This document shows, one piece after another, positions 16,487-25,879 of a stretch of DNA of 64,000 nucleotides. The position numbers and the translations under genes are program-made. Source of the DNA: Gyromitra esculenta (lineage: Eukaryota; Ascomycota; Pezizomycetes; Pezizales; Discinaceae). The notes beneath the pieces were generated by a model that was given only the letters and a program-made list of their open reading frames with translations, was not told where the DNA came from and searched no databases. How positions within the stretch are numbered: the stretch's first letter is position 1; each line of letters opens with the position of its first letter. The stretch is from assembly GCA_038503075.1 (NCBI GenBank), contig JBCAML010000023.1:310001-374000 (forward strand), given 5' to 3'.

Positions 16487-17664
16487 CTAATCAAAAGAAG
16501 AAACAGCCACCGGGAATTCCCTAGAAGGTGAGCAGAAGTGAAGTTTTTCGAATCTAACATTATCTCTCAGCATTTCTCCCACCACATTCCGGATTTTATC
16601 CCCCATGCTGGGGTCCGCACAAACTTTGGAGAAAGATGGTATTAGAAAGGTCTCCATTTTTTGTAAGAGAGTTCTCACATGCGACAACCATACGTCCTTT
16701 CTGTTCTTTAAGCTTGCTTTTCAGGAGGGTCTGGGCGTCAAATACTCCCTAGTACTTCTTAATACGTTTGTGGAGTCCAATATGTAGTGGATTGCCAGCC
16801 CCTATTCCCTCACTGTAGTACTCTCCCAATACCTAAACGGATATATTAAGAATCTAGTTGATATTCATTAGATGTTTATCAGAACCCTTTGGCGGTACTT
16901 ACATAGTAATTGTCCAGCTTTAAAAGTTCATCCATCGATCCCTTCACCCAGTCTTCGTCAGATTCCTTGTCAACTTGCCAAAAGAGTGAAATTCGTCCGG
17001 TTCTAACTTCCCGGTTCCTACGTCCCTCAAGGAGTCTTCTCATATAAGGTAGTTGCCCTGCGATACCAATTCCAGTAGCGAATAGGACAACATTTCCATA
17101 TGATCCAAGGTCCTTCTCAGATCCGTAAGGGCCTTCAATCAACGCCCTCATTGACAAGCTTTGATATCTTTGGAGCTTTCTCTTAAATCCTCTTCGGAGC
17201 TGAATTAGGAGCATTGCTATTGCGCCACCGTTATTGTCTTTCTGCCACCAGGAAATCATGAAAAGGTGATATTGAAGCCAAGCCCAAAAGCTGACTCCAG
17301 GCACACAAATATTTATGTATTGGCCTGCTTTGAAATCCCAAGGTCTCGGGAGCTTGAAGCTTACATGGATTGCGTCGCCTGAGAGCCTTTGAATTTCTAT
17401 TTTGCTTGTAAATGCGCTATGATTGAGATTTTGGTATAGAGTAAGAAAGTTTCGGATAACCACTACCGCACCAAAAGCCGAAACCCCCGTGATGAGATGT
17501 ATTTTTGCGATTTTGGATATAACATGGTACCATAGCGTGACCATGGTTGCTATTGCAAATAAAATATGTGCTTTGAGGAAGGTCTAATAGAATAGACGGC
17601 GGATAAATAGAAACAAGAGGAGTTGAAAGAATAACATCCCACCAGCAGCTTGAAGGGCGTGTTA
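16487..17664 (-). pseudogene. Ferric reductase pseudogene, C-terminal part (FAD/NAD-binding)
   Basis: The sequence reads as the second half of a fungal FRE-type flavocytochrome. It has the end of the heme-membrane domain (FLKAHILFAIATMVTLWYHV), the FAD-binding region (RPWDFKAGQYINICVPGV, MRALIEGPYGS) and the NAD-binding start (VVLFATGIGIAGQLPYMRRL). After a GTAAGT donor near 16900, it continues to a C-terminal VCADPSMGDKIRNVVGEM segment (16487-16687). In-frame stops occur at 17662-17664 (TAA) and 17584-17586 (TAG), and there is a frameshift near 16690. The N-terminal half lies 7.6 kb away at 25302-25879, separated by a transposon with a 6-bp target duplication. The gene would have encoded a plasma-membrane metalloreductase; it is now dead. 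Confidence 0.85.
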
Positions 17665-17670
17665 GTCAAG

Positions 17671-17724
17671 TACGGCGGCTCATAGCTACCAAAGTCCGAT
17701 CTGAAGTTTTCACCGTAGCAACCA
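17671..17724 (+). repeat. Left terminal inverted repeat of the IS3EU-like element
   Basis: Pairs with 25242-25295. About 45 of 54 positions match, with most differences G/A or C/T. Confidence 0.88.
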
Positions 17725-17832
17725 CAACCACATACCAGAAACTCCAAAAAAAAAACTTCTTTAAATGCTACAATTAAAATATATATTACAATTATCAATA
17801 AAAAAATAGAGAAATAATTAAAACTAAAAGGC

Positions 17833-18246
17833 TTACTTCCTAGCACGTAGCCTCATACCCAAACCTTCTACCGCACCCTTTATTTTCTCACGAGAAGCTT
17901 TAGTAGGGCGACTCCTAACCCTTTTCTTAGCGAGAATAGATATTTCTCCACTGTTTTCAATTTCCTCAGCTTCTTCAGCTTCTTCTGCAGCCACTTGTAC
18001 GTCTAAATCCTGTGGCAAATTGCTTTCAGATTCAAAGGATTGAGGAGGAGAGGGGGCAATATTTGTATTTTCCTGGTCGCTATACTCTAGCAATGGGAGA
18101 ACCGGAAGAACTGGGGATGATTCCGGTTCAGAGTCATCCTGTCGATTTCTCTTATTCAGAGGTGAGGATGGAGAGGAGTCATCATACACCTTACGCATTG
18201 ATACTGTTCTTTTAACTGGAGGAAGTAGAGCAGGTGGTGGTGACAT
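17833..18246 (-). CDS. Element ORF X3, basic Pro/Ser-rich protein, 137 aa
   Basis: Starts MSPPPALLPPVKR, has Ser/Pro/Asp/Glu-rich middle regions with an acidic run (AAEEAEEAEEIE), and ends in a basic tail (KKRVRSRPTKASREKIKG, then RLRARK). This composition suggests a disordered nuclear or DNA-associated protein. It ends only 110 bp inside the left TIR. A GTAAGT site lies just before the stop of X2 upstream, so X2 and X3 might be spliced into one product, although the simple junction is out of phase. Function unknown. Confidence 0.6.
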   Translation of the reverse strand: MSPPPALLPPVKRTVSMRKVYDDSSPSSPLNKRNRQDDSEPESSPVLPVLPLLEYSDQENTNIAPSPPQSFESESNLPQDLDVQVAAEEAEEAEEIENSGEISILAKKRVRSRPTKASREKIKGAVEGLGMRLRARK

Positions 18247-18297
18247 AAACGGACTTTAGATAATTAACTAATTAGTTTATTTCCAGTATCCAATAAA

Positions 18298-18789
18298 TTA
18301 TAAAAGAGATTCACTTACTTCTCGTCCTATAAAGAGAGTTTTATGTGTATTTCCTTCTTTCTTCTCTAACTGGCTCTCATTGGTACCAAACCCAAATTCC
18401 TGTTTAATATTTTTTATAAAGGCTTGAGATACCTCTTTTTCCTTCTGACAGCGACCCTTTCTATCCTTTGCTGTCCAACATTTTACAACTATGAATATCT
18501 TAGTCATAGTTCCTCCAGGAAAATCCAACAAAAACTCCCCAACGGTAATCGGATCCCGTCTCACTTCCAAGCGATGAGGGCCTTCTTTAGTACTAAAAAA
18601 AGTTGCCAAAATGATTTGTTGGATATCTAAATAATCCATATTGACCACTTCTGCATCTGTCCAATTCGGTGATAATTTCAGAAGAATTTTGGCAAATTCT
18701 GCAAGGTATAGTATAACCTCGGTAAGGTCCTCAAAAATCTTAGACGAAACTCCTACTTTAGTCAGTATATGTGTTTTGAACCTAAACAT
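18298..18789 (-). CDS. Element ORF X2, 163 aa, unknown function
   Basis: A globular-looking protein (LTEVILYLAEFAKILLKLSP; ITVGEFLLDFPGGTMTKIFI) with a lysine-rich segment (KCWTAKDRKGRCQKEKEV). A TTTAG acceptor-like site overlaps its first codons, so this could be an internal exon of a larger X1-X2-X3 gene. No family recognised. It is intact although neighbouring genes carry stops. Confidence 0.6.
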   Translation of the reverse strand: MFRFKTHILTKVGVSSKIFEDLTEVILYLAEFAKILLKLSPNWTDAEVVNMDYLDIQQIILATFFSTKEGPHRLEVRRDPITVGEFLLDFPGGTMTKIFIVVKCWTAKDRKGRCQKEKEVSQAFIKNIKQEFGFGTNESQLEKKEGNTHKTLFIGREVSESLL

Positions 18790-18893
18790 AATATAAATCT
18801 TATAAAATATTACCTAAATTTTTAATGGAGGATCACTTATCTGAACTAGACCCTACTATAACAACTATTTTCCAAGAGTCTCTTGCTGGAATC

Positions 18894-20078
18894 TGTAACG
18901 GATCCACAATACCGTTACCTGCAGTGAAGCATAATAGTACCTGGCAAACAGAGAGGTAGTAAGGATCAGCATGAGTGGTGTAGCTACCACATGTTAGTGG
19001 ATACCTGCTATCCTGCTGTTCCGATGGAGTGGAACCAGCGAGAATAGCATTAGCTGACGAGCCAATGATATATCTCCGGTGATACCAAACACAGGAAGCT
19101 CCTGTGGTGGCGTTCCCAACCCATCTGTGCATATACTAGCGGCCCAGAGCCATTGGTGCAGCAATAGGGAACTATTAAGTGCAGGACACCTCACATGCAA
19201 CAGTAGACTGATCAGCGCCAATTCCTGCATCCAGCATAGGCATTGCATGCAGCTGGCGGATCGAGAAGGTCTAACTGGACAGAACAACCGAGGAGTGCCG
19301 GAAAGCGCCGAAGTGATCATTAGCTGAATCCTGAGGTGCCCTGCCCGCAATAGCTTGGCATGTTCTCAGGGTCTTGACGGGCCTCCAGCAGAGTAGAACA
19401 GAAAGAGGACGGCGAGTCAGCAGCACTATAAAGATAGTGCATGACCCTGCCACCTGTTGCTCTTCTTCCCAGTCTCATCAGGCAGAATACTACAGAGTAG
19501 AGCCCTTAAGATTATTTAGTACTTTGCAAGATATACTCTTAACATCTCAACCTGATTTCTAGTATTTGCAACGGCCGTATCTCAAGGAGTGAGTTTCCGT
19601 CAAGCTCTTTGGTATCCCCAAAGACGAGCAGTGCTACTTGAACGGAAACTAACAGCGAGAGTTTTGAACGATGGTTCCACAGGCTCTACAATAAGGGGAA
19701 CTTTAGGGTTCCGGCAGCGAGACTACGTTGATGTAGTGGCGTGATAGTTACGAGAAGTATCACGAGATCGACGAAGGAGTCTGAGAGAATCCTGGCTTGT
19801 ATTGTAGTATACAAGTAGAGTGACAATAGAAGACGTTCGAAAGAAGAAGGAAAAGTACAAGATGAGGGGAAATCCCTTCGCTTATATACCATATTCCAAC
19901 CCTTTCGATGACAAAGACATGACTCATAGTGACGAGAAACTCATAGAAACACAAAGAACGACAACGAAATCCGGCAACCATATACCCATACACCCAACCG
20001 ACCAACATAGCATCCATCCATGAAACCGTATTCCTATACCTATTCCCACTACAGAGCAGTAGGACTACCCCCGTTACA
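18894..20078. mobile_element. TGTAACGG element, short copy A (probable LTR-type)
   Basis: Begins TGTAACGG and ends CCGTTACA, flanked by a perfect 5-bp duplication GAATC (18889-18893 and 20079-20083). A subfamily B LTR (19580-20025) is nested inside. Without it the copy is about 734 bp, an internally deleted version of the 1.7-kb copy at 39005-41528. TG...CA ends and 5-bp duplications suggest a solo LTR of another retrotransposon family, but a TIR element is not excluded. Confidence 0.88.
19580..20025 (-). mobile_element. Solo LTR, subfamily B, nested
   Basis: Runs from TCTCAAGGAG to CATCCATGAAA with duplication CCGTA at 19575-19579 and 20026-20030. It sits inside the TGTAACGG element and is therefore younger than it. 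Confidence 0.92.
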
Positions 20079-20550
20079 GAATCATTTTCCTGGTATCGGC
20101 CTCTTTTACGCCAGGAATAACTAAACTGGGTAGTAAACCATATTTGGAACTGCCCTGTTTTCGCAATTTTTTTTCAAATGCACTCCATGTTATTGACCCT
20201 TGTCTATACAATTCAACAATCTCTCGACTAGATAACTGACCTGTTTTGACATGTACAAATTTAGTAGGTGATGTTTCTGGACTAGATATAATAATAGTTT
20301 CCGGTGGTGGTGGGAGGGTACTCTTATTTTTTCCCTTTACATTCAAGTTGACTCCGAGTCCTATAGACCTGCGAGATGGAGCCAATACAGGAGCAGAGGC
20401 AGCAGGTTCAAGGCTCAAGGCTTGAGGAATAAATAAATGTGTAGGTACACGCTCTCCACAGCAACGAAAGACTCTGTCAGACGTTTTGGCATGTAGGGTA
20501 TTTTCTCTTTGGCCGCAATATTCTGATGGGAGTAAACGTGAAGAAGACAT

Positions 20551-21184
20551 ATTCGTAATCGAAGGGAGAAAATAAAATTTATTGGCAAATAAAGGTAAAA
20601 ACAGGATTGTGAGCGGAAAGAGGAATAATGGGGAATAATGGCAATAGAAAAATTAAAGGGAACTTATAAGGTTATAAGTCTCACTGGAGAACGCATAGAG
20701 TTTCCAATTGTAAGTAATAATAAAATGTTGGGCTGATTATGCGGGAACGCAATTGGTATTTGCATCCGATTTACTAAGCAAGTATACACATGCTTATTAT
20801 TACTAAACAGGTATATACATGCGTATTATTACTAAACAGGTATATACATGCGTATTATATAGTAACCAACAAGGTATTATAATACATATACATTAAATAG
20901 CACTAACGTCAACTCACACTAGTATTGCCAGCACTCAACGCCTATGTTATCTATTGTCTAAAAGGTATTCTCAGCTACATTAGCTTATACTAAAATGTCT
21001 AAAGCCGGATATTAGCGGAAATATTGTCATAACTCTAAGTGCTATATATCTTTTCAATTATTCCTTTTACAATACAGATATTAAAGCCTTTCCTTGGAGA
21101 ACTCCTTTCACATTTTACTCCGACCAAAGATATTCACATTTACTTCGCTTTTTATCACCACACCATCAAATATCACTTGTTTTC
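20551..21184. promoter_or_regulatory. Divergent intergenic region of the IS3EU-like element
   Basis: This 634-bp gap separates X1 (minus) from the integrase (plus) and must hold both promoters. It contains three imperfect ~28-bp tandem repeats (about 20775-20862) around the words TATACATG and TATTATTACTAAACAGG, which could be factor- or transposase-binding sites. It is strongly AT rich and otherwise without ORFs. Confidence 0.45.
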
Positions 21185-23415
21185 ATGTCATCTCACGTTA
21201 GCTCTATTCTCCAGCAGTATAAGTATTTTATTTATGATATATATATTGCGCACAACAAAACTATCATGGAAACTCTAGAGGCACTAAAGTTGGAAGGAGT
21301 TAAATGCTCAAGATCTACTTTAACCCTTCGCATGAAAGATTGGGGTTTTACCAAAAACTCCAGGTCTGAAGATACAGCCTCATTACGTGTGGAGTTAGCT
21401 TTTCTTTTCTGGAAGAAATGTTTAAGCGACGAAAAAATCTTAAGGGTATATGCTCATGGTCAAGTCTAGTTATATATAAATAAAGCTAAAGTAATTAGAT
21501 TCTTAAAATCAATGGATATATCATTAAACTTCGATGTTTGATACTCATACGAAAGTCAATGGGAATGCTGCGTCAATTATCAGGCAAAAACATTGATCCG
21601 GATGCAGATCAAAAATTGCAAACAGTAATTGAACAAGAGCTGGAAAAAGGGAATATTACTTTAGCTGGTCGACGCTCAGTTTGGATGTATTTAAGAAATA
21701 TGGGGATATTGGCTTCAGAGTAAGTTTTATGCAACTCTTTTATATTTAATAGATATTAGTATTGACAATAAATAGGCATAGCATTGCGAGAGCATTAAAG
21801 ATAGTAGATCTAATGGGTGTTGAAAACCTTTGGAAAGGAGTAAATAGACACCATACTCAATTTACATGCCCTGGTCCCAACTGGTGTTGGTCTATAGATG
21901 GTCATTTAAAATTACAAATGTTTGGAATAGAGATTTATGCTGCTATTGACTCATATTCCCGCTATATTACCTGGTTTTACTGTGGAGTATCAGGAAAAAC
22001 TGGTATAAGTATATTGAGTCAATTTTTGAATGTCATTGAAGCGCACAATTGTATGCCTTTACACATACGGGCAGACAGAGGAACAGAAACTATGATGGTA
22101 GCAGAAGCGTTTTGGGGATTGCATCAAGGTGAAAATCCAGAGGTTTAATGGATTAATGTTGGGTGTTGGGTCAGGGTTTATTAATAGTTGGTTGCGACGG
22201 ATAGGGGTAGTTGTATAATGTCTTTGTGTTTCGGTTGTTGTCGGGTATTTAAGTGATGGATTTTGGTCCTCTTGTTTTCTCTTTTTCTTCTTTCCTTAAG
22301 CAACGTTCTCGTTATACTTCTCTTGTATCAGTTTTAAATATCACTTCGATTCTACCTCAGAATCCTCACTGTCACTGTGAACCATCACCGATACTTCGCC
22401 TTGAAGTATACTCCCTGTAGGACCTGTAGAAAACCTCGCACTCGTCGAACGAGTTGATACCTCGCTTAAGTAGCACTGTTCACCTTCGGGGATACCGAAG
22501 GGCTTAACTGAGGGACTCGACCATGAGAAGAGGTCACATTCCCTGATGTGTTTTGGTATGAAACATCTACACGGAATATCAGGATTGAGAGTTGGTGGGG
22601 ACAGCTCACGAAAGGTGCAACTGCAGAATGGAAGGTATAATTTTCCCACATATTGAAATAATTTATATTCTAAAAGAAAAATATAGTACCAGTTTATATC
22701 CACTAGCAGAGGCACTTTAGAAAGCTGCAGCAAGATCACTTATTCCACGAAGATAATATGGAAGATAAAATATCTCTTTTATATATCTGTCTTCCTCTCC
22801 TACGAGAGAAACTGCTTCAATTTGTGGAGCGGTGGAATGATCACAAAATCAGAAAGCAGAGCAAGAGACCAAATCTTCCTACCGGCGAGCCATACTACAA
22901 TTATTACTTTCCACCTGATGTTGAACAGAACTATGGCACATATCCTTCGCCTGAATTGATTGATAAATACCGGAATGAGAAACTAAAAAATATAGAAACT
23001 GAAGCTTTATATGGTACCAAACCCCAAACTCAATACAATATAGTAATTATATACTAACGTATGAGACCACAATGAGTATTTACCTGAAACTACTATGGCT
23101 TATTGCTATGCTTTACTTCGAAAGGCAGGATTTCCATTGCTAGTTAAATATGAAGATATAATGCCCAATGGGCAAAAATCTCATTTAATCATGAACTGCT
23201 TTCTACATACCCATCTTTGGAGACATGTGGCAAAAGGAAATAAAGCTCCCCAGATTTCTTTACTCCCAAAACCTCAGGAAAATAAAATAAGACAAAAGTG
23301 GGTATGTACATTGGCAGGTATAAAACCAGTTGAACGAGAGATGGAATTTCCTGGAGAGGACGAAGAAGATGTATCTGATAGTTCAATAGACTGTAATGAC
23401 GAAGATGGAAACTAG
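21185..23415 (+). pseudogene. IS3EU/rve-type DDE integrase-transposase, five exons, LTR-interrupted
   Basis: Exons: 21185-21445, 21499-21719, 21776-22634 (holding a solo LTR at 22144-22528), 22707-23013 and 23066-23415. Removing the LTR with one AGAGG copy gives 1,608 nt, exactly 536 codons, without internal stops. The N-terminus has two helix-turn-helix-like parts (LEALKLEGVKCSRSTLTLRM; then after splicing DEKILR joined to ILKINGYIIKLRC). The rve core follows the CPGPNWCWSIDGHLKLQMFG motif (Asp), then HIRADRGTET (Asp) and RNIRIESWWGQL (Glu), with about 40 residues between the last two. The C-terminal part is LLREKLLQFVERWNDHKIRK and an acidic tail. It would catalyse cutting and joining of the element ends. 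Only the LTR disables it, so it may have been active recently. Confidence 0.88.
22144..22528 (+). mobile_element. Solo LTR, subfamily A, inside the integrase
   Basis: 385 bp from TTTAATGGATTAATG to ACCATGAGA, with a perfect duplication AGAGG (22139-22143 and 22529-22533). It lies between the second catalytic Asp and the catalytic Glu of the integrase. Confidence 0.92.
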
Positions 23416-23489
23416 ACATTTATGTATATAGTAATAAGCCTTTTATTTTAATTTATCTGTATAATATATCTTGTAATTGACTATGCTAA

Positions 23490-23909
23490 TTATGCTGACT
23501 TTGCACGCTTGTTTTCCTCCTTTACATCCAGTTTACCAACTTTTCTAGCCCTAGGCCTGCCCCTTTTCCCTGTTTGAATAGATACAACATGACTTGACGC
23601 TATGGTTAACTCTTTTCTCAATTTGATTTCCTTAATTGTATCCATAAAACTCCCAATCCCAATTTCAGCCTTGTTACCATCTGTACTCAAAAATACTTGT
23701 TTTTTTTCAGCTTCTTCCTGTGTGAGAATCCTACCATTTTTTGCCCCGAACTGGGGAAATATACAGGTATAAGTATATTTAGCTTTACCTTTTTCTTTAA
23801 TGTCCTTACCTTCCAAGTCTGGATCCATCTCTTCTTTTTTTTTACTTCTCAGCTGAATGGTATAAATGAGGACCTTTTTCTTCTCAATATTTCCAGTGCT
23901 CGTTGCCAT
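23490..23909 (-). CDS. Element ORF Y2, 139 aa, lysine-rich with AT-hook-like motif
   Basis: An intact ORF with charged N-terminal region (RSKKKEEMDPDLEGKDIKEK), a middle KYTYTCIFPQFGAKNGRI and a C-terminal GKRGRPRARKVGK that resembles an AT-hook. This suggests a DNA-binding accessory protein. It starts 10 bp after the stop of Y1 on the same strand and is convergent with the integrase, whose stop is 75 bp away. No family recognised. Confidence 0.6.
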   Translation of the reverse strand: MATSTGNIEKKKVLIYTIQLRSKKKEEMDPDLEGKDIKEKGKAKYTYTCIFPQFGAKNGRILTQEEAEKKQVFLSTDGNKAEIGIGSFMDTIKEIKLRKELTIASSHVVSIQTGKRGRPRARKVGKLDVKEENKRAKSA

Positions 23910-23918
23910 ACTCTCCTC

Positions 23919-24932
23919 CTATCCTTCATCCAATGGATCTATATCTGTTGCTAGCAAGCCAGCTTTTTGAAGCCTGTCATAATCTGGAAGGGAAAGTAGT
24001 GTATAGGGCTTTCTGTAGGCTTTGGTGAATTGAGAATTGATGTAACGGGTTACTGACTCTGAAAAATCAAAGGCTTGATTGAAGGTAGAGCCAGCAGGAA
24101 CTCTTTGACAGTATTTTGGAGATTTTGCAATCTCAAAAAAGGACCGAATGGCTGAAAGCAGGTTTTTTCTGAGTTGAGAATTGCTGAAAACATCTTCGAT
24201 ACGGTGCTCAGAATGGATAAAAGCTCTATGGAGGATCTCAACTGCATGGCTAGTCCCGATGCCATTCCACAATGTATTCTTTGAAGAATCTGCCATTTCT
24301 TTATATATCCCACCAGTACGTTTGGTAAGAGAGGATAAAAAAGAAAGTAGATTCTTTTCAAAGGCATCGGGATGTTGAATAGGGCATGGTGCCAGGGTGG
24401 TATCGTATCAGGTATTGGTTGTGGTAAAAACAGGAGTAATAGTTGTGAGTTTATTCCTAATCGCTAGTTAGTACATGGTAGTAGAAAAGAAGACCGTGCC
24501 AGTCTATGAGAAGAAAAACTTGAAGTACCTATCCACTAAAATAACACACATTTCAGGGCCTACAATTGCAGCCAGAATAAATGTATGCTTGCTAGAATCA
24601 TCCTCCTCTTTCCAAGCTTTAATAATGGTATCGTACTCATGCCTGGTACATGGTAAACCATGACCGTGTAGAAGGAAATGAACTCTCAGCCAGATTCCAT
24701 TAGAGAGAGGTATTCCCATTGCTTTGCCATAATATTGAACATTAGACCCCTGGAAAAAAAACTCTTTCTTATCGTAGGCATATTTTTCTAGGAGTTCTCC
24801 ATCTCTTATAGTAGGGATTTTGCTGGTGTTGGCTCGGAACTATTGTTCATGAACATCAAGAGTGTAGGTGCCTGCAGGTACTTGGGCTGCTATCATCCGT
24901 TGCATGTCATAGTATGTGATTCCTTCAGGCAT
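23919..24932 (-). pseudogene. Element ORF Y1, two exons, 313 codons, two internal stops
   Basis: Exon 1 is 24932-24529 and exon 2 is 24456-23919, separated by a 72-nt intron (GTACTT donor, TACTAAC branch, TTAG acceptor). The joined length is 942 nt, a whole number of codons. TAG at 24840-24842 and TGA at 24408-24410 interrupt it. Visible sequence: MPEGITYYDMQRMIAAQVPA at the start, GIPLSNGIWLRVHFLLHGHG in the middle, SLTKRTGGIYKEMADSSKN in exon 2, and a C-terminal PDYDRLQKAGLLATDIDP. No family recognised. It is globular in composition. Its stops contrast with the intact integrase frame. Confidence 0.6.
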
Positions 24933-24944
24933 TGAATGTTTCGC

Positions 24945-25241
24945 TGCGCGAGAATGTGTGGTTGTGCGAGAGGTAAGAGGGGATGTGTGGTTGCGCGAGA
25001 GTGTGTGCGGGGTTGTGAAATACAGCGAGACCGAAGAAAATTCATGCTACTGACTGGAAAAAGCACACAAGTATAGACCCCCCAGCATGACCAGTAAAAT
25101 GTTTAAATTTTATAACAATATTTATCTCCAGCATATGTTTAAACAACTCTATAACATAGCTAGTAAAGCGAAAATATATTCTTGTATTCTCGGTTACAGT
25201 GCTAAAAAGTTGCTAACTCGCTTAGTTGCTAAGTTGCTAAA
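24945..25241. other. Right subterminal region of the IS3EU-like element
   Basis: Contains GT-rich short repeats (GCGCGAGAATGTGTGGTTG words at 24946-25015) and, next to the TIR, four direct copies of GTTGCTAA-like words (25209-25250). Such subterminal repeats often bind transposases; here that is only inference. Confidence 0.45.
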
Positions 25242-25295
25242 TGGTTGCTACAGCTAAAACTCCAGACCGGACCCTGGTAGTTATGAGCCGCTGTA
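25242..25295 (-). repeat. Right terminal inverted repeat of the IS3EU-like element
   Basis: Reverse complement partner of 17671-17724. It is followed at once by the second GTCAAG copy. Confidence 0.88.
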
Positions 25296-25301
25296 GTCAA
25301 G

Positions 25302-25879
25302 TCTAAAGTTAGGATTGAAGAGAACTACCAGCAATCCAGGGAGTGCAGGTTTGGATTTTGTTTCTGTAAACGAGATGGCAGCGTGTATAAGACTTTCGAC
25401 AACAGCCACTCTCACAATCCATCAGTATGTGAGGCTATAAGTATCAGGTGATAAGCCACAGAAATTCGCCACCATAAGACCACACACACACAAGGGTATG
25501 AGATTTATCACTGACACCAGCCCGGATCGTGATTTTAACTCAGCGGAGCTTGTGACTCCAACAGCCAAGAACATAGCGTTCCCTAAAATGTACACGGATA
25601 TAAGAATACAATGGAACCAAGTTATTGTATTTTCGCCCCTCAGAAGCTTGGGGATTTGGGGATAAACTAGATACTTTAGGATAAGGTACGTTCCGAAGGT
25701 ACGTATAGCTGAAAGAATGGCGAGTAACAAACGGTAGATAGATAAAAGAGCTGCTAGCATTCCTAGAGAAATTGCATACCATTGGGTGACTTCCGTTGCT
25801 AACTTTGTACTTTGGAGTATGGATATACAGGATGGCTTTATAGAATTCTACGGAAGGCAGTATTCATGCAGCTAGAAAC
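25302..25879 (-). pseudogene. Ferric reductase pseudogene, N-terminal part (membrane/heme domain)
   Basis: Reads from about 25820 as TQWYAISLGMLAALLSIYRL, an interior hydrophobic span (ITWFHCILISVYILGNAMFL), then RSGLVSVINLIPLCVCGLMV and, beyond a TGA at 25422-25424, WIVRVAVVESLIHAAI. This is the usual order of the ferric-reductase transmembrane domain, in which the last segment carries heme-ligand histidine. The frame then continues directly into 17664 once the transposon is removed. The upstream end is lost at the LTR starting at 25880. With 16487-17664 this makes one dead gene. Confidence 0.82.

Follow-up and report, generated by a model that had tools for sequence, protein, structure and literature searches.

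Does a fungal DNA transposon carry, beside its integrase, a gene for an enzyme that acts on DNA bases, and what could such an enzyme do for the transposon? The question is raised by an element at positions 17671 to 25295 of a 64,000-nucleotide stretch of the Gyromitra esculenta genome (contig JBCAML010000023.1, positions 310,001 to 374,000 of the forward strand), here called the window, which an earlier reading made without database searches (the sequence-only reading) described as a complete multi-gene IS3EU-like transposon. Comparison of open frames among copies of the element gave the order gene A (minus strand) on the left, a DDE integrase (plus strand) in the middle and gene B (minus strand) on the right. 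Gene B appears to encode a divergent Fpg/Nei (MutM/NEIL)-like glycosylase protein, apparently new on such a transposon. We favor the reading, at a probability of about 0.4, that this is an IS3EU-like cut-and-paste transposon whose gene B product is an Fpg/Nei-family enzyme acting on the element's altered or methylated bases and thereby counteracting silencing.

The element and its copies in the genome

The window copy is 7625 bp long and has the ends ascribed to it: the arms of the terminal inverted repeats (TIRs) are 54 nt long and 83% complementary, and the 6-bp target-site duplication (TSD) GTCAAG is perfect on both sides. The termini are of the TA..TA type, with TACGGC...GCTGTA in the window and TACGG at both ends of the copies on C12, C10 and C13 (C-numbers denote contigs of the genome searched, which comprised 47.1 Mb in 23 contigs). 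The right end of the window copy is TACAG, a departure from the TAYGG..CCRTA pattern.

An integrase-core gene is present, as had been claimed. In the window it matches Pfam rva_4 with an E of 2.9e-15, and a Clr5 N-terminal piece is recognized with an E of 5.7e-6; the integrase of the C12 copy (P0001) matches rva_4 with an E of 4.1e-28. Matches of the integrase to rve are weaker. The 3' part of the window integrase is 69-74% identical to those of the C12, C10, C13 and C18 copies in its middle and 56-58% at its end. Catalytic residues D156, D215 and E256 (numbering of P0023, DD40E) are invariant in 14 aligned relatives. No HHCC or other zinc-binding integrase domain was found in P0023; apart from rva_4, rve and HTH_21, Pfam gave a single unrelated, weakly scoring model for it. 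Among named relatives, LAJ45_08978 of Morchella importuna is the closest (71% identity), and its neighbor by locus tag, LAJ45_08977, is a homologue of gene A; the 41 matches also include named relatives from Tuber, Penicillium, Talaromyces, Kalaharituber and a scallop. The available part of PMC10045372 describes IS3EU/GingerRoot elements as having TA..TA ends, a 6-bp TSD and no HHCC motif, and that of PMC12730594 gives TAYGG..CCRTA ends and TIRs longer than 30 bp for fungal TET+ IS3EU elements. Judged by termini, TSD and integrase domains, the proposed IS3EU-like placement is supported, with the window's right end as the departure noted above; the part of PMC10045372 available mentions no Fpg/Nei-like gene.

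The TIR search that the sequence-only reading had proposed was carried out across the assembly with a 20-mer pattern and up to two mismatches. It retrieved 28 matches (16 forward, 12 reverse), while the reversed pattern, used as a control, gave 0, so that the matches exceed chance. Twenty regions, and later three more, were examined around the matches, and about half of the TIR matches were followed to the far end. Neighboring inward-facing ends with up to five mismatches were counted as pairs in the first 20 regions together with the window's own pair. Ten pairs were found, seven of them between identical 6-bp flanks: GTCAAG (window), CCCGAA (C12), GGCCTC (C10), CCCACC (C13), GCCTGA (C5), ATTGTT (C6) and GGCGGG at C1:2883299-2884239, where the pair is 941 bp long and one of its ends is degenerate (five mismatches). 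The flanks are unlike at C1:2908765-2909551 (GTTGCG/TTTACG), C1:1953932-1954301 (TCCCGA/GCCGCC; one end with four mismatches) and C14:1149049-1149532 (TATATA/TACTAC; one end with three mismatches).

Both ends were found for four gene-bearing copies, all with a 6-bp TSD, namely the window copy and those on C12 (12,623 bp), C10 (11,974 bp) and C13 (6,469 bp); the C12 and C10 copies hold open frames of nested retroelements that look Gypsy-like on inspection by eye. A fifth gene-bearing copy, on C18, has a left end with the flank ATTGAG, and its right end was not found. Genes A and B lie beside the integrase in these five of the eight integrase-bearing loci compared, and the family is multi-copy. 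All seven matches (in five places) to a 162-residue H2TH piece of gene B also fall in the five copies. In each of the C12, C10, C13 and C18 copies, one gene or more is affected by frame breaks or nested inserts.

Two observations that the sequence-only reading had named as telling against its claim were considered. As to integrases with other borders, the C12, C10 and C13 copies end alike, each within its own 6-bp TSD, and far ends were not found for C18, two C17 loci and C23:751760. As to TIRs apart from the genes, pairs of these TIRs that enclose no genes and lie within perfect 6-bp TSDs do exist (C5:1361043-1361798, 756 bp; C6:705001-705691, 691 bp). This is normal for non-autonomous derivatives, and the two short elements are derivatives of this transposon family that resemble miniature inverted-repeat transposable elements.

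A further B-side TIR end with a gene B exon is located at C23:718007-718706, and a diverged gene A homologue lies nearby (C23:715265-716634); the locus possibly represents another subfamily. Integrases of this kind that are more distant (~32-47% identity) occur on C4 and C11. No gene A or gene B matches were found near them in the 7-8 kb fetched for each, and the TIR-pair search gave dispersed-repeat ends only on C4 and nothing on C11.

Gene B and the Fpg/Nei glycosylases

The C-terminal and H2TH pieces of gene B, parted by a stop in the window, are continuous in C12 (P0002, one 321-aa frame) and C10. The gene begins with MPE[G/A] at the first in-frame Met in the window, C12, C10 and C13 and at the annotated start of homologue P0010; the MPE start was not located in the C18 copy. 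A search of the PDB with the gene B profile gave 23 matches at E <= 1, every one of them NEIL1/Fpg (best E 0.029). The four NCBIfam families matched by the 13 gene B members scanned are all Fpg (best E 0.0016), Pfam H2TH was matched by five of the 13 (best E 0.0063), and at E <= 10 the H2TH search of the whole genome listed nothing but the host Fpg and gene B. Using hhalign, gene B was aligned with Fpg/Nei over 187 columns (E 9.5e-7, probability 91%). The H2TH part alone gave an E of 1.1e-6 and a score of 47.5, whereas 60 column shuffles reached an E no lower than 0.03 and a score no higher than 20.5. The signal is specific, as the same procedure returned an E of 0.19 for gene B against the integrase alignment and 0.53 for gene A against Fpg. 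The 50 Foldseek matches listed for a modest gene B model were all MutM/Nei/NEIL (best E 2.1e-6). The H2TH part of gene B is thus related to Fpg/Nei; for the protein as a whole, we infer the full Fpg/Nei fold, catalytic activity and substrate.

Gene B resembles the Fpg/Nei glycosylases (MutM, Nei, NEIL1-3, plant/fungal FPG) in its MPE N-terminus, H2TH motif, order of parts and, by alignment, lysine position. It differs from them in being far diverged and transposon-borne, in the replacement of the H2TH asparagine and in a long extension at the C-terminus that ends in a basic GRP tail; no zinc finger was seen in it. The asparagine, N168, is replaced in all 12 aligned gene B sequences that cover it (by Thr in 11 and by Met in P0005). 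The GRP-containing basic C-terminus is found in 9/9 homologues reaching that end (RGRP in 3/9). Two topoisomerase VI chains were among the structural matches, over the H2TH region only. The replaced asparagine, the lack of a visible zinc finger, the GRP-containing C-terminus and the topoisomerase VI matches, together with the H2TH part being the sole part significant by itself, favor a non-catalytic, Fpg/Nei-related DNA-binding accessory (H2TH plus basic tail) that would aid the integrase on the TIRs or handle the excision site. Against this speak the catalytic-type MPE, kept in the sequences reaching it, and the GK lysine. The latter is present in 4/4 sequences reaching it and aligned with E. 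coli K56, within a putative N-terminal beta-sandwich domain that alone falls in the range of shuffles. We rank a non-catalytic accessory next after the anti-silencing enzyme, as a possible role that we tend to doubt.

The UniRef name of homologue P0007 suggests a GIY-YIG homing endonuclease; this was rejected, since at E <= 10 none of the 13 members scanned matched that domain, although 10 Pfam families were matched in all. A recent derivation of gene B from the host Fpg was rejected as well, the best pairwise match being 30% over 43 residues (E 0.033). Gene B may therefore be a long-kept repair gene, and base repair is the canonical role of Fpg/Nei enzymes. The product would then guard the element by ordinary repair of oxidized or deaminated bases, apurinic/apyrimidinic (AP) sites and excision gaps, not by removal of silencing marks. 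However, the host has an Fpg of its own, so that a copy on the transposon would not be needed for general repair, and we consider this role unlikely. Named gene B homologues are found in Maublancomyces and Choiromyces. Homologues P0004 (of B) and P0022 (of A) are each listed with a contig of 14,376 bp, probably one and the same, and no gene B relatives were found in viral contigs.

Comparison of the window, C12 and C10/C13 lineages showed that gene B is near saturation at synonymous sites (proportion of synonymous differences, 0.67-0.84), with a nonsynonymous divergence (dN) of 0.18-0.29 and an omega (ratio of dN to synonymous divergence, dS) of 0.08-0.16 where computable. For gene A, omega between lineages was 0.08-0.12 in the C-terminal and 0.12-0.31 in the N-terminal part; the integrase, with a dN of 0.11-0.21, was too saturated for omega. 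Genes A and B have thus been under purifying selection between lineages. The copy pairs C10-C13 and C18-C13 are near-identical (97-98% in protein), which suggests recent movement. Omega is not low among such pairs (0.44 at a dS of 0.02 for the integrase, 2.87 at a dS near 0 for gene A), as is expected for decaying new copies, and gives no evidence of selection.

Gene A, the nested insertions and the host gene

The sequence-only reading counted at least five other open reading frames (ORFs) beside the integrase. Comparison with copies and homologues rules out five separate extra genes, the ORFs being exons or fragments of A and B only. ORFs 18298-18813 and 20074-20652 are the two halves of gene A, parted by an LTR-like insertion (LTR, long terminal repeat), and ORF 17833-18255 can be assigned as its last exon, a similar tail being joined to gene A in one protein in Morchella conica P0019 and in P0022. 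No convincing family was found for gene A: the best Pfam match, to a viral model, had an E of 0.0096, NCBIfam gave none, and the best PDB profile match had an E of 0.52. Its predicted model is poor (mean pLDDT 40.5) and had no Foldseek match at E <= 0.001; the list of weak matches includes several ubiquitin-like or beta-grasp chains. Gene A encodes a conserved partner that, at a guess from its basic tail, perhaps binds DNA.

Table 1. Positions of the element's parts, its nested repeats and the host gene in the window.
Feature	Positions	Strand	Basis or remark
Host ferric reductase, C-terminal part	16879..17583	-	FAD_binding_8, NAD_binding_6
Left TSD, GTCAAG	17665..17670		sequence
Left TIR, begins TACGGCGGCTCATAGCTACC	17671..17724	+	inverted-repeat match, genome-wide pattern search
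Gene A, last exon, basic tail	17833..18255	-	kept in C12, C10, C13, C18
Gene A, C-terminal half	18298..18888	-	58-70% identical to C12, C18, C13, C10 copies
Nested LTR-like insertion, TGTAACGG..CCGTTACA, 1185 bp, 5-bp duplication GAATC, splits gene A	18894..20078		by eye
Gene A, N-terminal half	20084..20652	-	44-49% identical to C12, C10, C13, C18
Integrase, 5' part: Clr5-type N-terminus and DDE core with first two catalytic Asp	20984..22141	+	Pfam
Second nested repeat, splits integrase before catalytic Glu	~22142..22575		borders approximate
Integrase, 3' part, from IESWWGQLTKGAT onward	22576..23415	+	copy comparison
Gene B, C-terminal part, basic GRP-containing tail	23490..23918	-	stop parts it from next piece in window copy
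Gene B, H2TH part of Fpg/Nei-like domain	23919..24407	-	profile and structure comparison
Gene B, predicted N-terminal-domain exon with GK lysine	24504..24839	-	copy comparison, profile alignment
Gene B, N-terminus MPEGITYYDMQRM, then stop codon in window copy	24843..24932	-	first in-frame Met
Right TIR	25242..25295	-	inverted-repeat match, genome-wide pattern search
Right TSD, GTCAAG	25296..25301		sequence
Host ferric reductase, probable N-terminal part	25422..25847	-	by position and frame, not profile

As can be seen from Table 1, the window copy is not complete: gene A and the integrase are each split by an inserted repeat, and gene B has in-frame stops. Because of the split at ~22142-22575, it cannot encode an intact transposase and is inactive. 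Positions 19579-20025 of the LTR-like insertion match, at ~75%, both of the LTR-like ends that flank an element nested in the C10 copy; that element contains a long retroelement open frame. Positions 22243-22528 of the second repeat match dispersed repeats at other fetched loci. The indices of repeat-induced point mutation (product 0.86-1.07, substrate 1.05-1.17) are similar in the flanking window and, by general thresholds, do not clearly indicate this process.

Removal of the element had been said to rejoin a ferric reductase in frame. The two halves do lie in the same frame, but after removal of the element and one GTCAAG the open stretches at the junction are 42, 47 and 1 aa in the three frames; none spans it, which rules out restoration as one open frame. 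It follows that the host gene has decayed or that the junction lies within an intron.

What gene B may do for the element

According to the favored anti-silencing reading, the integrase would bind the TIRs and move the element, leaving 6-bp duplications. The gene B product, a putative divergent MutM/NEIL-like DNA glycosylase/AP lyase, would attack altered cytosines (products of 5-methylcytosine, of deamination or of oxidation) in the DNA of the element itself, and their removal would blunt methylation-based silencing of the element. The role is proposed by analogy. TET/JBP proteins on fungal transposons, IS3EU included, have been argued to oppose methylation-based silencing (Kojima 2025, PMC12730594, in its available part), and mammalian NEIL1 excises 5-carboxylcytosine (PMC5566547, likewise). 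In the host genome, cytosine-methyltransferase-type genes gave six matches in four places, one with stops. The single Tet_JBP match listed, at C17:1015945-1016316, has four stops inside and lies outside the copies studied; it is decayed or intron-bearing and possibly a remnant of a TET-bearing transposon.

Several results weigh against this reading. Single-sequence Pfam and NCBIfam matches of gene B stay below curated cut-offs, its N-terminal domain alone is not significant, the TM-scores of its structural matches are low, and two C17 loci and C23:751760, all with broken integrases, have neither A nor B in the stretch fetched. The last three hold down our confidence in anti-silencing. The first two would also fit an ordinary IS3EU family in which the additional genes are unrelated fungal ones and the H2TH-like motif arose by chance. 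We regard that as very improbable, given the agreement of the PDB profile, genome-wide H2TH, NCBIfam, Foldseek and hhalign results, the score of the H2TH part far above its shuffled maximum, and purifying selection and linkage across five copies.

The sequence-only reading also held that a multi-gene fungal IS3EU member may be undescribed, the group being usually known by the integrase alone. Such elements are already in print, so this claim to novelty fails. Styx of Zymoseptoria, an IS3EU-related element of 7927 bp with four ORFs and a 6-bp TSD, resembles the Gyromitra element in its size of ~8 kb, DDE transposase, TSD and several genes. Compared by description only, it differs in its other ORFs, two with GATA and CCHC motifs and one with DUF3577, and no glycosylase is mentioned in the available part of its report (PMC10853768). 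TET+ IS3EU elements of rusts and Tuber indicum, as far as the accessible text of PMC12730594 describes them, carry transposase, TET/JBP and alpha-kinase genes. They share with our element TIRs longer than 30 bp, TAYGG..CCRTA-type ends, a 6-bp TSD and an accessory gene for a DNA-base enzyme, and differ in the TET/JBP and alpha-kinase genes, for which no Pfam match was found in the proteins of the Gyromitra element (alpha-kinase was not searched genome-wide). Among the matches listed in the open-licence PMC literature searched, no report of an Fpg/Nei gene on a transposon was found. What appears to be new is therefore the Fpg/Nei-like gene B on an IS3EU-like transposon, the multi-gene layout itself being known.

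Whether transposon-encoded Fpg/Nei base excision is an anti-silencing device that arose as a second, independent answer beside TET/JBP, with an excision step instead of oxidation, is a suggestion that we put forward as rather unlikely in its full form. An Fpg/Nei-like enzyme kept under purifying selection on a transposon related to TET/JBP carriers could provide the step, further downstream, in which bases are removed. How transposons fight silencing by DNA methylation would then become a question directly testable with one purified protein.

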